Shown: positions 14,759 to 21,036 of the stretch, in pieces | Position numbering within the stretch: the first letter of the stretch is position 1 | How the letters are laid out: each line of letters opens with the position of its first letter | Assembly (NCBI RefSeq): GCF_913055165.1 | Contig: NZ_CAJXJS010000003.1 | Coordinates: forward strand, 1-64,000 | Origin: an uncultured Devosia sp. | GTDB lineage: Bacteria; Pseudomonadota; Alphaproteobacteria; Rhizobiales; Devosiaceae | DNA: 64,000 bases | Reading direction: 5' to 3' | Position numbers and translations under genes: made by a program | The notes under the pieces: model-generated | Told to the model about the DNA's origin: nothing | The model's input: only the letters and a program-made list of their open reading frames with translations | The model's database searches: none

Positions 14759-15053
14759 GGGATTTGCAAAAAACGCGCGACAGCCTTTGTCAGCAGATCG
14801 GGACGGCTAGGCGTCAACCGCGCAGGCGGGTTGGACGCGGAATGGCGAAAACTGATTGGCCGGCGGGCGCGCTTTCCTACGCCCGCGAGGCGGTGCCGTA
14901 AAGTCTTGTAATGCATGGGCGGCATGCCGATATCTGTTGCGGCGGCCACTGCGTCGCCATTGATGTTCTTGTTCTGTTCTCATCAACCTGATAGCATTCC
15001 CATGCGTTGGAGGAAAGGCGATTCCCTCCCGCGTCGAGGCAGGAGACAGAACC
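14759..15053. other. Intergenic region between divergent exporter and radical SAM genes
   Basis: About 300-370 bp without a credible gene, depending on the exporter start. The small track ORFs here have no recognisable features. The only clear signal is the LexA-type direct repeat at 14965-14979; an AGGAG ribosome binding site precedes the ATG at 15054. Confidence 0.6.
14965..14979 (+). promoter_or_regulatory. LexA (SOS) box, alphaproteobacterial GTTC-N7-GTTC type
   Basis: The sequence GTTCTTGTTCTGTTC contains GTTC, seven bases, then GTTC, which matches exactly the LexA box of alphaproteobacteria. It lies 74 bp before the ATG of the SPL-like radical SAM gene, a usual operator distance. This predicts DNA-damage induction of that gene. 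The other divergent gene (drug exporter) could in principle also be affected. Confidence 0.7.
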
Positions 15054-16202
15054 ATGGCCCTCTACCAGGCCCCCTCTTTTGAAGCCCTTGAGCGTTTGAG
15101 CCGCAGCCGCGATGCCGATCTGGCACGGCGCGAATTGATGCAGCCCGATCGCATTCGCGGTCGTGGCGCCCAGACCAATCGCTCGGGGCGTTTCGAGACA
15201 CATCAGCGCGATGGATTTGACGATGGTTGGGGCAGTGTCGAGCCGCTCCCCCTGTTCGAGACGATCGAACATATCGAGCGCGCCAAGACCATCATCACCA
15301 CCAATGACAGCCCGGACATCGGCTTTGAGCGTTCGATCAATCCCTATCGCGGCTGCGAGCATGGCTGTTCTTATTGCTTTGCGCGCCCCACCCACGCCTA
15401 TCTCGGGCATTCGGCGGGCGTGGACTTCGAGCGTGACATCTATGTCAAAGCCAATGCGGTAGAGGCCCTGCGCGCCGAACTTTCGGCCAAGAACTACAGG
15501 CCCAAGCCCATTGCCATGGGCACCAATACCGACCCATACCAGCCGGCCGAACGGACACATAAGCTGACCCGCGGCATTCTCGAGGTCATGCTGGAGACCC
15601 GCCATCCGGTGATGATCACCACCAAGTCTGCCCTGATCGTGCGGGATCTGGATATCCTGACGGAACTGGCAAAGCTGGGACTGGTCAAGGTCGCCATTTC
15701 GGTGACCTCGATGGATCACAAGCTGAGCCGCAAGATGGAACCGCGTGCCTCCTCGCCAGTGCGGCGGCTGGAAGCCATCCGCCTGCTTTCAGAGGCTGGT
15801 ATCCCGACGGCTATCTTCGCCTCGCCGATGATTCCGGCCATCAACGACATGGAGCTTGAGCGCATTCTCGACGCCGGCAAGGCGCAGGGTGCTGTCAGCG
15901 CGCAGATGATCCTGCTGCGCTTGCCGGGAGAAGTGCGCGACGTGTTTCGCGAATGGCTGCTGCGACACTTCCCGGACCGGGTGCGCCATGTGCTCTCGCT
16001 GGTCCGTGACACGCGCGGCGGGCGCGACAACGACCCGCGCTTTGGCTCGCGCATGGTGGGCGAAGGCCCCTATGCGACCCTATTGCGCCAGCGCTTCGAA
16101 AAGGCGCGCGAGCGTTTTGGACTGGACGCCAAGCTGCCGCCGCTGCGGGCCGATCTTTTCGAGGCCCCGAAGGTGGAAAGCCCGCAAATGAGCCTGTTCT
16201 AG
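15054..16202 (+). CDS. Radical SAM protein, PA0069 family (spore photoproduct lyase-like)
   Basis: A 382-residue radical SAM enzyme. The 4Fe-4S motif CEHGCSYCFA (Cys101, Cys105, Cys108) is followed by conserved segments such as FERSINPYRG, MGTNTDPYQP and ITTKSALIVRD, typical of the SplB-related Rv2578c/PA0069 family. Spore photoproduct lyase itself repairs UV thymine dimers in spores, but the reaction of this non-sporulator family is not established to my knowledge. The upstream LexA box supports a role in DNA damage. The start is supported by AGGAG about 10 nt upstream. It faces the end of the convergent exported protein gene. Confidence 0.88.
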   Translation: MALYQAPSFEALERLSRSRDADLARRELMQPDRIRGRGAQTNRSGRFETHQRDGFDDGWGSVEPLPLFETIEHIERAKTIITTNDSPDIGFERSINPYRGCEHGCSYCFARPTHAYLGHSAGVDFERDIYVKANAVEALRAELSAKNYRPKPIAMGTNTDPYQPAERTHKLTRGILEVMLETRHPVMITTKSALIVRDLDILTELAKLGLVKVAISVTSMDHKLSRKMEPRASSPVRRLEAIRLLSEAGIPTAIFASPMIPAINDMELERILDAGKAQGAVSAQMILLRLPGEVRDVFREWLLRHFPDRVRHVLSLVRDTRGGRDNDPRFGSRMVGEGPYATLLRQRFEKARERFGLDAKLPPLRADLFEAPKVESPQMSLF

Positions 16203-16207
16203 GCAGG

Positions 16208-16789
16208 CTAGTATTGCGCGACCCTGCGGGCATAGGTGGCCATGAAGTCGAGCGAGGCCAGCACGCCGCGTAGCGACAGCCAAGTGCGAACCGGCTCCGC
16301 CTGGCCCAGAAGCGGCACTGACAGGGTCACCGCATTCCGGTCCTTCATTGTCTCGATGATGGCGTCGCGCTGGTCCGGGTCTGCGATGAAGAACTGGTTG
16401 ATTGTGTTGAACCGCGTCTCGATGCCGGTGCCCATCGTGAGGGCGATCGGCGGCTCGCCGCCAAATTGCAGTGTCATCGGTCGCGCCGGGTCGTATTCCC
16501 CCTCTTCGGGTGACACGGTGATTGCCAGATCGAGGACACCGTTGAGCCGATTGCGGATCAGGGTCAGCTTGTAGGCTGGCAGTCCGGCTCCGTTCAGTTC
16601 CTGGCTGCCGGTGCTGGCAAAGCAGGAATGAAAGTAGTAGCCGTCCGCATCTTCATTGATGACATCGGGACAGGCTGCCAGCCAGTCCCGGTTGTATTCG
16701 CGCCACTCGCCAAAGGGATGGTGGAAGGGCTCGGCCGTACTCGGGCCGGTCAGCAGCAGGAAGGCCATAAGGCCGCTTGCTTTGCGCAT
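16208..16789 (-). CDS. Exported protein of unknown function
   Basis: About 193 residues with a signal peptide (MRKASGLMAFLLLTGPSTAE). The mature part has the opening FGEWREYNRDWLAACPD and two early cysteines about 24 residues apart. This is loosely like the beginning of invasion-associated locus B proteins, but I see no firm IalB signature. Either of two adjacent ATG codons (16792, 16789) can start it. It is convergent with the radical SAM gene and divergent from the DUF4180 gene. I do not recognise the family. Confidence 0.65.
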   Translation of the reverse strand: MRKASGLMAFLLLTGPSTAEPFHHPFGEWREYNRDWLAACPDVINEDADGYYFHSCFASTGSQELNGAGLPAYKLTLIRNRLNGVLDLAITVSPEEGEYDPARPMTLQFGGEPPIALTMGTGIETRFNTINQFFIADPDQRDAIIETMKDRNAVTLSVPLLGQAEPVRTWLSLRGVLASLDFMATYARRVAQY

Positions 16790-16935
16790 CAAAGTCTCTC
16801 TCGCCTTTGCCCCCCGGCGGAGACTCTTGTATCAGCACATTCGCGGACAGGAATAGGGCATTCCATCTTTCCGACACGGTCGGGCGCCAATCAGGCGTCG
16901 CCCAATGCCTGGGCCTAACGAAATGGCAGATCGAA

Positions 16936-17301
16936 ATGACGACGCAATCCATCAATGGCATCACGGTCTATTTCGTCGCCGCCACCGGCGCGCCGCTCAG
17001 CGCCGAACAGGACGCCCTGGATCTTATCGGAGAGACCTATGGAACCGGGACCGAAATGATCGTGGTACCGGCGCAGCGCTTTGCGCCGGGTTTTTTCGAT
17101 CTCAGCACCCGCACGGCCGGTCACTTTTTCCAGAAGCTGCAGAATTACCAGATGCGGCTCGCCATCCTCGGCGACATCTCGCAGCACATGGCAGCGAGCA
17201 AAGCTTTGCGTGATTTTGTCGGCGAGACCAACAGGGTTGGCCATCACCTCTTCGCGCCAGACCGGGCGGCGCTCGAGATCGTCCTCATGCGGGGGCGATA
17301 G
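16936..17301 (+). CDS. DUF4180 domain protein
   Basis: A small cytoplasmic protein of 121 residues matching the DUF4180 pattern: a conserved DALDLIGETYG segment, RFAPGFFDLSTRTAGHFFQKLQNY and LAILGDISQHMAASKALRDFVGETNR. The function is unknown. The track ORF starts 53 codons earlier, in the divergent promoter region; MTTQSINGITVYF at 16936 fits the family length. It is 2 bp upstream of rnhB and probably cotranscribed with it. Confidence 0.8.
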   Translation: MTTQSINGITVYFVAATGAPLSAEQDALDLIGETYGTGTEMIVVPAQRFAPGFFDLSTRTAGHFFQKLQNYQMRLAILGDISQHMAASKALRDFVGETNRVGHHLFAPDRAALEIVLMRGR

Positions 17302-17303
17302 GG

Positions 17304-17992
17304 ATGGCACGCAAGGGCAAGGTAACGGCCGCAAACGCGGAACTCTTTGCACCGGAAGCGGGCTTTCCCGATTTCAGCCATGAGGAAATGCTGATCGCGC
17401 GCGGCGCACGACTGGTCGCCGGGGTAGATGAAGCCGGCCGCGGTCCCCTGGCCGGACCCGTTGTCGTGGCCGCGGTCCGGCTCGATCCTGCCCGCATCCC
17501 GGATGGCCTCAACGATTCCAAGAAGCTGACGGCCGAGCGCCGGGAGGCCTTGTTCGAGCAGATCCTGTCCACGGCGGATGTCGCCATCGTTTCGGCGCCG
17601 CCCAGCGACATCGTCTCGCTCAACATTCGTGGCGCTACCCTCGCAGCCATGGCGCGCGCCGTCCGGGCTTTGCCGCACCGGGTGGACCGGGTGCTGGTGG
17701 ATGGGCGCGACGTGCCGCCGGAGCTGCCCTGCCCGGGCATTGCCCTCATCGGTGGCGACGGCCGCAGCGTCTCGATCGCAGCGGCTTCGATCGTGGCCAA
17801 GGTGATGCGCGACCGCATGTGCGAAATCATGGATTGCGACGCGCCGCATTTCGGCTTTGCCGGCCACAAGGGCTATGGCACCGCGGCGCATCTTGCGGCG
17901 CTCGACCTGCATGGGCCCTGCCGCCACCACCGCGCCGAATTCGGCCCCGTCGCCGCCCTTTTACTCGCCCGGACGAGCATTGAGGTGGTGGG

Positions 17993-17996
<4 letters not shown>
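17304..17996 (+). CDS. rnhB: Ribonuclease HII
   Basis: Endonuclease that cleaves RNA in RNA-DNA hybrids and starts removal of misincorporated ribonucleotides. The 230-residue protein has the catalytic motif GVDEAGRGPLAGP (first two acidic residues), NDSKKLTAERRE, the third acid in VLVDGRDVP and the C-terminal HKGYGTAAHL segment. An N-terminal extension of about 35 residues precedes the core, as is usual in alphaproteobacteria. It follows DUF4180 by 2 bp. Its stop codon overlaps a CtrA-like box belonging to the ccrM promoter. Confidence 0.95.
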
Positions 17997-19215
<1,219 letters not shown>

Positions 19216-19324: not shown

Positions 19325-19855
19325 ATGACGATGACAATGGCGATCACCATCCGACACATTACCCCCGCCGATGCTCCAGGTTTTCACGATGCCCTGGACA
19401 GCGTGGCGCGCGAGAGGCGCTTCCTGCGGCTGACCAGCGCCCCGCCGCTTGAGCGGTCACAGGCCTTCATTGCCGACAATATCGCCAAGGGTAATCCGCA
19501 ATATGTGGCGGTTGATACGGGCGTGCTGGTGGGCTGGTGCGATATCTGCCGCTGCGATGAGCCGGGCTCGGAGCATTGCGGCGCGCTCGGCATGGGCCTG
19601 GTCCTGAGCCATCGCGGCAAGGGGATCGGTCGCGACATGCTTGCGGCGACGCTCGACGCGGCGCAGAGCCGGTTCGACCGCGTTGAACTGGACGTCTATG
19701 CGTCAAACACGCCTGCCATATCCCTCTATGAGAAATCCGGCTTCACCCATGAGGGGCGGCGTCGGCGCGCCATCCAGCGCGATGGCCGGTTTGACGACAT
19801 CATCATCATGGGCCTGCTGTTCAGTCAAAGCCTGCCGCAGCCAATACCTTCCTGA
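19325..19855 (+). CDS. GNAT-family N-acetyltransferase
   Basis: An acetyltransferase of about 176 residues. The acetyl-CoA loop appears as LSHRGKGIGRDMLAATLDAA (R/Q-x-x-G-x-G/A type), and the C-terminal part has ELDVYASNTPAISLYEKSGF, the usual GNAT beta5-alpha4 segment. The substrate is unknown. The upstream terminator implies its own promoter. The start could be any of three close ATG codons (19325, 19331, 19337). Its last 35 bp overlap the end of the convergent mutY gene. Confidence 0.85.
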   Translation: MTMTMAITIRHITPADAPGFHDALDSVARERRFLRLTSAPPLERSQAFIADNIAKGNPQYVAVDTGVLVGWCDICRCDEPGSEHCGALGMGLVLSHRGKGIGRDMLAATLDAAQSRFDRVELDVYASNTPAISLYEKSGFTHEGRRRRAIQRDGRFDDIIIMGLLFSQSLPQPIPS

Positions 19856-20873
19856 ACAGGGTCGGCAGGGCCTCGCCCTTGAGCGCCGCTGGCGGCGCCC
19901 ACCAGCCGTCGCCCAGCCCCTCGGGCGATACCGCGGCCGACCACACCTCAAGCTCCAGGCGGAAATGGGTGAACACATGCACCACCTGTCCGCGGTGGTG
20001 CCATTGGGCCGCCACCGGATAGGCCGGTTCTCCCGGCGCATCACTCCATTCCGAGGTCGGCACCTCGGTCATCCCGGCCAGCAAACCCCTGGCGGGGCGC
20101 GTCTGCAGATAGACGTCCCCCGCCCCATCCTGCATCACATAGGCGTGACCGCGACGCACCGGCCGCTCGGCCTTTTGCGGCTTTATAGGATAGCGCGTCG
20201 GCTCACCTGACCGCCGGGCCTCGCACCCGTCATGGAGCGGACAGACAAGACACATGGCCGCGCGGGGCGCGCAGATGGTGGCGCCCAGGTCCATCATGGC
20301 CTGGGCAAAATCGCCGGCCCGTTCAGGCACCGCCAGTTGCAAGGCGCCACGCAATTGCTCCTTGGCCTCGCGCACCGGCACCTCCAGCGCATAGTAGCGC
20401 GCCAATACCCGGTCGAGATTGCCATCGAGCACGGCCACACGCTCATCGAAACAGATGGCGGCAATCGCGGCGCTGGTATAGGCGCCGATGCCGGGCAGGA
20501 CCTGAAGACCGGCGGCAGTATCGGGGAAGATGCCGGCATGGTCGCGCACCACTGCCTGCGCGCAGGCGTGCAGGTTTCGCGCCCTTGCGTAATAGCCCAG
20601 CCCCGCCCATTCGCGCAGCACCGCGTCAAGCGGCGCCTTGGCAAGGTCGTAAACCGTGGGCCAGAGCGTGGTGAATCGAATGAAATAGGCCTTCACCGCG
20701 GCCACGGTGGTCTGCTGCAACATCACCTCACTCAGCCAGACCCGATAGGGATCGGGCCGTTTGCCGGACTTCCGGTCCGCCGGAGAAACGCGCCAGGGCA
20801 GATCGCGGGCATGGCTGTCATACCAGGCGAGCACGGCCGTGGAATCAATGGGATGCGGATGGGCAAGGGGCAT
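19821..20873 (-). CDS. mutY: A/G-specific adenine glycosylase
   Basis: Base-excision repair enzyme that removes adenine opposite 8-oxoguanine. The 350-residue protein has SEVMLQQTTVAAV, the helix-hairpin-helix LPGIGAYTSAAIAAI with the catalytic Asp in VLDGNLDRVLARY, and the Fe-S cluster motif CAPRAAMCLVCPLHDGC (C-x6-C-x2-C-x5-C). The NUDIX-like 8-oxoG recognition domain follows. The track ORF is extended by 53 codons through a C/G-rich repeat; MPLAHPHPIDSTAVLAWYDSH fits better. It is divergent from dciA. Confidence 0.95.
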   Translation of the reverse strand: MPLAHPHPIDSTAVLAWYDSHARDLPWRVSPADRKSGKRPDPYRVWLSEVMLQQTTVAAVKAYFIRFTTLWPTVYDLAKAPLDAVLREWAGLGYYARARNLHACAQAVVRDHAGIFPDTAAGLQVLPGIGAYTSAAIAAICFDERVAVLDGNLDRVLARYYALEVPVREAKEQLRGALQLAVPERAGDFAQAMMDLGATICAPRAAMCLVCPLHDGCEARRSGEPTRYPIKPQKAERPVRRGHAYVMQDGAGDVYLQTRPARGLLAGMTEVPTSEWSDAPGEPAYPVAAQWHHRGQVVHVFTHFRLELEVWSAAVSPEGLGDGWWAPPAALKGEALPTLFRKVLAAAGFD

Positions 20874-20917
20874 GCGTGGGGGATAGCGCGATCGCGCCGG
20901 CCGCTTCAAGAAGAATA

Positions 20918-20966
20918 CCCCCACCCTCCTTCCCCTTGATGGGGAGGGATTGAGGGTGGGGTGCGC
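20918..20966. repeat. Short C/G-rich interspersed repeat, copy 1
   Basis: An imperfect palindrome in the mutY/dciA gap, with CCCCTTGATGGGGAGGG at its core and CCACCCT...AGGGTGGG on the flanks. On the minus strand it reads CACCCTCAATCCCTCCCCATCAAGGGG, which closely matches the copy at 59.96 kb. In translation it gives the Pro/Ser-rich phrase HPTLNPSPSRG in the spurious mutY extension. Confidence 0.7.
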
Positions 20967-21036
20967 CACGCATGTCGAGGCATCAACATGAACGCCACGC
21001 TTGTCCAGAACCCTTGTGCAGGGGTATTGCACTCAA

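Follow-up and report, generated by a model that had tools for sequence, protein, structure and literature searches.

In this Devosia genome, a PA0069-family radical SAM gene probably encodes a LexA-repressed enzyme that is recruited to the replication clamp and acts on DNA lesions other than the spore photoproduct. For more than a decade, a radical SAM protein resembling spore photoproduct lyase (SPL) has been counted among the SOS genes of several phyla, without an assigned substrate. The evidence presented here comprises a LexA operator conserved across relatives, an SPL fold that lacks the SPL hydrogen-donor cysteine, and a C-terminal peptide of the type that binds the clamp protein DnaN.

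The LexA operator and its probable target gene

The window, i.e. the whole 64-kb stretch of DNA that was analyzed, contains a single GTTC-N7-GTTC match in a pattern scan, located upstream of the radical SAM gene:

14,965-14,979, + strand: LexA operator GTTC-N7-GTTC (GTTCTTGTTCTGTTC), exact match, at the same place in 128 of 147 orthologue loci
15,054-16,202, + strand: PA0069-family radical SAM gene (382 aa; NF033668, 525.6 bits; PF04055 Radical_SAM)

The original prediction described an exact operator 74 bp before a PA0069-family gene, and both elements were confirmed: the box ends 74 bp before the ATG at 15,054, and the open reading frame covers model positions 1-348 of 348 of NCBIfam NF033668 (rSAM_PA0069), whose curated cut-off is 360 bits. 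The closest relatives of the protein are found in D. marina and D. ureilytica (94-95% protein identity). Since shuffled sequence yields 1.28 GTTC-N7-GTTC matches per window by chance, the match by itself is no evidence, and conservation is what decides. Across the source genome, the pattern occurs 116 times, against 68 for the reversed pattern. The same box form precedes lexA and uvrA, each with two boxes, and an imuA-like gene; the first two were named by Pfam, while the imuA-like gene, with no Pfam match, was recognized by eye. The box of the latter, GTTCTTGTTTTGTTC, differs from that of the window by one base, and the boxes close upstream of recA all carry one mismatch.

Conservation of the operator across relatives

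An exact box occurs within 400 bp upstream in 128 of the 147 orthologue loci, a mostly alphaproteobacterial set that is partly redundant and has at least one betaproteobacterial member (L064); about one would be expected from the background of 0.0075 per 415 bp, taken from the remainder of the same loci. About 14 of the loci lacking an exact box have a one-mismatch version, GTACTTGTTTTGTTC-like, at the expected place. Among beta- and gammaproteobacterial orthologues, 27 of 40 loci carry the local LexA box, CTGTN8ACAG, in its place (background 0.0023), and a CGAACN4GTTC-like box lies upstream of three of the four actinobacterial relatives sampled. An upstream site that switches with the local LexA motif leaves little room for explanations other than selection for SOS control. 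Counting against this, within the stretch examined an exact LexA box is absent from 13 of the 40 non-alphaproteobacterial loci and from a Legionella plasmid member. LexA/SOS control of the gene is strongly supported by this sequence conservation, and we infer that LexA binds the box and that DNA damage induces the gene. The original prediction had proposed searching orthologous promoters, with lack of conservation as the outcome that would speak against it; the box is clearly conserved, exactly in most loci and with one mismatch in most others.

The idea that the box is a chance match, as the expected frequency per window would allow, or serves the divergent MFS efflux gene, whose start lies 0.2-0.3 kb away, was rejected on both counts as having a negligible probability, because the box is conserved and is kept with the radical SAM gene where the MFS neighbor is absent (MFS in 14 loci, box in 128).

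A family search found the radical SAM gene in 114 of 121 genomes; five genomes of about 2 Mb from one Devosiaceae genus (g10; G009, G019, G025, G031, G037) are without it. A plasmid search with the promoter DNA as query gave no match.

Promoter architecture

Alignment of 116 non-redundant promoters on the box gives the consensus wT-GTTCTTGTTTTGTTC-T, followed by TGnTA at a fixed distance. The corresponding elements in the window are as follows:

14,969-14,974, + strand: predicted -35 element TTGTTC, within the LexA box (TTG at box positions 5-7 in 78-89% of the 116 promoters)
14,989-14,997, + strand: predicted extended -10 element TG-A-TAGCAT (TGnTA at positions 25-29 from the box start: G 56%, T 63%, A 69%)
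15,041-15,045, + strand: ribosome-binding site AGGAG, 8 nt before the ATG, read from the sequence

The TG dinucleotide (14,989-14,990) precedes the -10 element TAGCAT (14,992-14,997), which is separated from the -35 element by a 17-bp spacer. This arrangement would correspond to a sigma-70 promoter of the extended -10 type whose -35 element falls within the box. The overlap between the box and the predicted -35 element implies direct repression by LexA.

Proposed mechanism and gene neighborhood

In the undamaged cell, LexA bound at 14,965-14,979 would block the radical SAM promoter at its -35 element. Upon DNA damage, RecA would become active, LexA would cleave itself and the gene would be transcribed. 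The product, a predicted radical enzyme of the [4Fe-4S]/SAM type with the SPL fold, would bind the replication clamp DnaN by means of the Q-[LM]-x-L-[FL] peptide at its C-terminus, a docking that would place it where forks meet lesions or have just passed them. The 5′-deoxyadenosyl radical may then undo a covalent DNA lesion or process it. This chemistry, with DNA as the substrate, is what we infer; a role in DNA-lesion repair is plausible and is strengthened by the clamp-type tail. Radical SAM enzymes also act on proteins, RNA and cofactors, a point against the DNA-repair reading.

The genes downstream in the window are the following:

16,208-16,792, - strand: opposite-strand gene between the radical SAM gene and rnhB
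17,304-17,996, + strand: rnhB (RNase HII), conserved downstream neighbor, co-directional in 84 of the 85 loci where it was found
18,079-19,215, + strand: ccrM-type DNA adenine methyltransferase gene, conserved downstream neighbor (NF050803, 625.9 bits, below the cut-off of 830; PF01555 and RAMA)
19,821-21,032, other strand: mutY-like gene (HhH-GPD and NUDIX_4)

Among the 85 loci, rnhB lies downstream of the radical SAM gene nearly always. A ccrM gene follows in 58 loci, and the synteny with both genes speaks for the proposed mechanism. The persistence of rnhB as a co-directional neighbor also favors an alternative, in which the SOS-induced, clamp-tethered enzyme acts at the fork on RNA or protein, for instance an RNA-DNA hybrid or part of the replisome, and not on a DNA lesion. 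Radical SAM enzymes of related fold do modify peptides (SkfB, a structure match), but the nearest fold by far is that of SPL, a DNA repair enzyme, and SOS control in three LexA-motif groups suits DNA repair best; we consider a protein or RNA substrate unlikely.

The order radical SAM gene, rnhB, ccrM is found on one strand in nearly all loci recovered across Alphaproteobacteria (15,054-19,215 in the window, and relatives). In the source genome, an operon of the three genes was rejected, because the opposite-strand gene at 16,208-16,792 intervenes; a DUF4180 gene also lies between the radical SAM gene and rnhB in the window. In other lineages, the same genes are co-directional with gaps down to 7-60 bp, in some cases close enough for one SOS-driven operon, which would take in RNase HII and CcrM. 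On a Haladaptatus salinisoli plasmid (L219), a radical SAM gene distantly related to the PA0069 family is directly preceded by TcmP (three-Cys-motif partner). A radical SAM relative on the Runella slithyformis plasmid pRUNSL02 (L218) follows HipA-type genes and overlaps a downstream UvrD-helicase gene.

The C-terminal clamp-type tail

The protein ends in ...SPQMSLF, a feature that the original prediction had not noticed:

16,185-16,199, + strand: QMSLF (codons 378-382), putative binding motif for the beta sliding clamp within the flexible C-terminal tail

Clamp-binding peptides in bacteria follow the consensus Q-L-[S/D]-L-F and are typically poorly ordered. In the alignment of 114 family proteins, Q378 is invariant, L381 is conserved in 97% and F382 in 72%, while the linker ahead of Q378 varies, with several columns exceeding 3 bits of entropy and up to 24 sequences gapped. 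Of 189 members, 186 have a Q-[LM]-x-L-[FL]-type motif among their nine C-terminal residues, compared with an expectation of 4.0 after tail shuffling and with 3 of 919 control open reading frames (200 aa or longer). In the structural model, this tail shows little order (pLDDT 54-68), so that both sequence marks of a beta-clamp binder, a motif and its location in a flexible, exposed segment, are present. We interpret the tail as a putative docking signal for DnaN.

Short Q-x-x-L-F peptides could have another binding partner, which is a point against the clamp reading. The motif is short and clamp binding is read from sequence alone, so the tail might be envisaged as a degron or as an interface for some other partner, in an SOS-regulated enzyme working away from the fork. 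We regard this as improbable: departures from the strict pentapeptide are either hexapeptide-like variants expected of clamp binders (QLTLPGL, QMALDL) or, in several members, motifs with residues beyond them (QLDLFAGIV, QLSLFDDKPAAGVNV, QMDLFAA), which argues against a degron.

Clamp docking would place the enzyme alongside the clamp-binding SOS and repair proteins Pol IV, Pol V, ImuB and MutS, which share a short Q-L-x-L-F-type peptide on a flexible segment and several of which are SOS-controlled; to our knowledge, none of these is a radical SAM enzyme. All four actinobacterial relatives sampled (Streptomyces, Arthrobacter, Nonomuraea and Tsukamurella) carry the motif, their endings comprising QLTLL, QEPLF, QLRLL and QESLF, and a Gemmatirosa relative ends in QLSLGI. 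The motif is absent from the sampled mobile-pair B, Paenibacillus, Runella and haloarchaeal relatives, and from the C-terminus of SPL itself. A distant relative encoded by a gut phage (clone MT835833, L222) ends in QMSLFE; judging by this ending, the phage may carry a clamp-tethered version.

Fold and relation to spore photoproduct lyase

The cluster-binding motif of the family is strictly conserved:

15,354-15,377, + strand: CX3CX2C [4Fe-4S]/SAM motif CEHGCSYC (codons 101-108; C101, C105 and C108 invariant in 114 aligned proteins)

An AlphaFold2 model built on the family alignment (pLDDT 92, pTM 0.90) was compared with the PDB using Foldseek, and the best six matches are all SPL entries (TM about 0.54-0.59, 19% identity), which we regard as a moderate fold match at the level of a predicted structure. 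The sequence link is very weak: the family profile gives no match to SPL chains at E≤1, and hhalign aligns only 69 columns at 14% probability. SPL orthology by sequence was rejected on these grounds. The connection with SPL comes from the structure search, from which the deposited 4fhc chain was taken as the SPL reference sequence.

In SPL, Cys140 is the established hydrogen donor. At the aligned position of the PA0069 family (157), where the pairwise alignment is weak, threonine is found in 80 of 114 members and mainly I, S, A, G or V in the others; the donor cysteine is missing in all 114. The protein is a radical SAM enzyme with the SPL fold and without one defining SPL feature. Its substrate is, by the same absence, probably not the spore photoproduct, the radical being quenched by another route, and assays should not use the spore photoproduct alone.

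Further comparison with SPL (PDB 4fhc and mutants) reveals both shared and distinct features. Besides being the nearest structural neighbor, SPL shares the CX3CX2C cluster motif and a tyrosine two residues past the second cysteine (Y96 in 4fhc, Y107 in the window protein). In addition to the replaced donor and the low identity, the window protein differs from SPL in having a conserved N-terminal RGRGA..N..GRFE region and the C-terminal QxxLF tail, and its host is not a spore former. A true SPL orthologue repairing 5-thyminyl-5,6-dihydrothymine in dry or UV-exposed cells would agree with the six best fold matches and with the name splB given by earlier authors (PMC3323433), yet it is very unlikely: no conserved cysteine occupies the Cys140 position, the conserved cysteines of the family number three in total, the family profile misses SPL chains, and NF033668 matches far better than any SPL model. 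The description of the gene as "spore-photoproduct-lyase-like" in the original prediction thus stands at the level of the fold and fails as orthology, while its proposal of LexA/SOS control stands.

The Rv2578c family of Actinomycetota (NF038135) is a sister family, for which the window protein scores 230 bits against a cut-off of 430. Its four sampled members resemble the window protein in ending Q-x-x-L-[FL], and three of the four have the CGAACN4GTTC-like boxes described above; their N-terminus is unlike that of the window protein.

Relation to published SOS genes

PA0069 (P. aeruginosa) and Rv2578c (M. tuberculosis) are reportedly members of published LexA regulons. LexA sites before "splB" were predicted in 2012 for alpha- and betaproteobacteria with the same divergent-motif argument (PMC3323433), and COG1533 SplB has been termed SOS-regulated in several species (PMC8565304); LexA regulation is therefore already published as a prediction. 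LexA regulons with radical SAM genes have also been described in Gram-positives and Balneolaeota (PMC7739468) and in Streptomyces venezuelae (PMC9380542), and RecA-dependent induction of a "DNA repair photolyase" in M. tuberculosis (PMC8151990). The published "splB"/COG1533 SOS gene is probably the PA0069 family (NF033668): the LexA box upstream is shared, whereas the earlier work equates the gene with SPL and "photoreactivation" (PMC3323433, PMC8565304). In archaea, SplB-like genes of unknown substrate adjoin NreB, for which a possible PCNA motif was noted (PMC4929162). These proteins likewise tie an SPL-like radical SAM enzyme to the replication clamp, but the possible clamp motif lies on the partner NreB, and the sampled haloarchaeal relatives are without the bacterial C-terminal motif.

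The literature found on "splB" contains no mention of a C-terminal clamp-type motif and no test of the SPL catalytic cysteine. Searches, mainly of the open literature, that combined PA0069 or Rv2578c with LexA, or clamp-binding motifs with radical SAM enzymes, found nothing, and at this coverage such absence is weak evidence. For sliding clamp, radical SAM and SOS combined, no title or abstract bore on the topic. The C-terminus appears to be unreported, and the clamp-type tail together with the missing SPL cysteine appears to be the new contribution.

These two features together predict a fork-associated enzyme acting on a different lesion, and they give a gene so far annotated as an unknown a testable role in repair at the fork; the tail glutamine, as strictly conserved as the iron-sulfur cysteines, indicates the expected site of action. 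More tentatively, the PA0069/Rv2578c proteins might form an unrecognized class of DNA repair enzymes, radical SAM proteins tethered to the clamp, that are SOS-induced under three LexA motifs, lack the SPL cysteine and undo some lesion, such as an intrastrand or interstrand crosslink, beyond the reach of known direct-reversal enzymes. Such an enzyme would also be relevant to actinobacterial survival of DNA damage.

Other candidate LexA boxes in the source genome

Two further boxes were observed in the source genome. A consensus-like LexA box, GTTCTGTTTTTGTTC, lies near a GFA-family (PF04828) gene (L197, C46:9156-10756). The sequence GTTCTCTTCTTGTTC is located immediately before a gene for a C-5 cytosine DNA methylase (PF00145; L199, C28:9784-11384) or at its start; this gene is a candidate further SOS gene.
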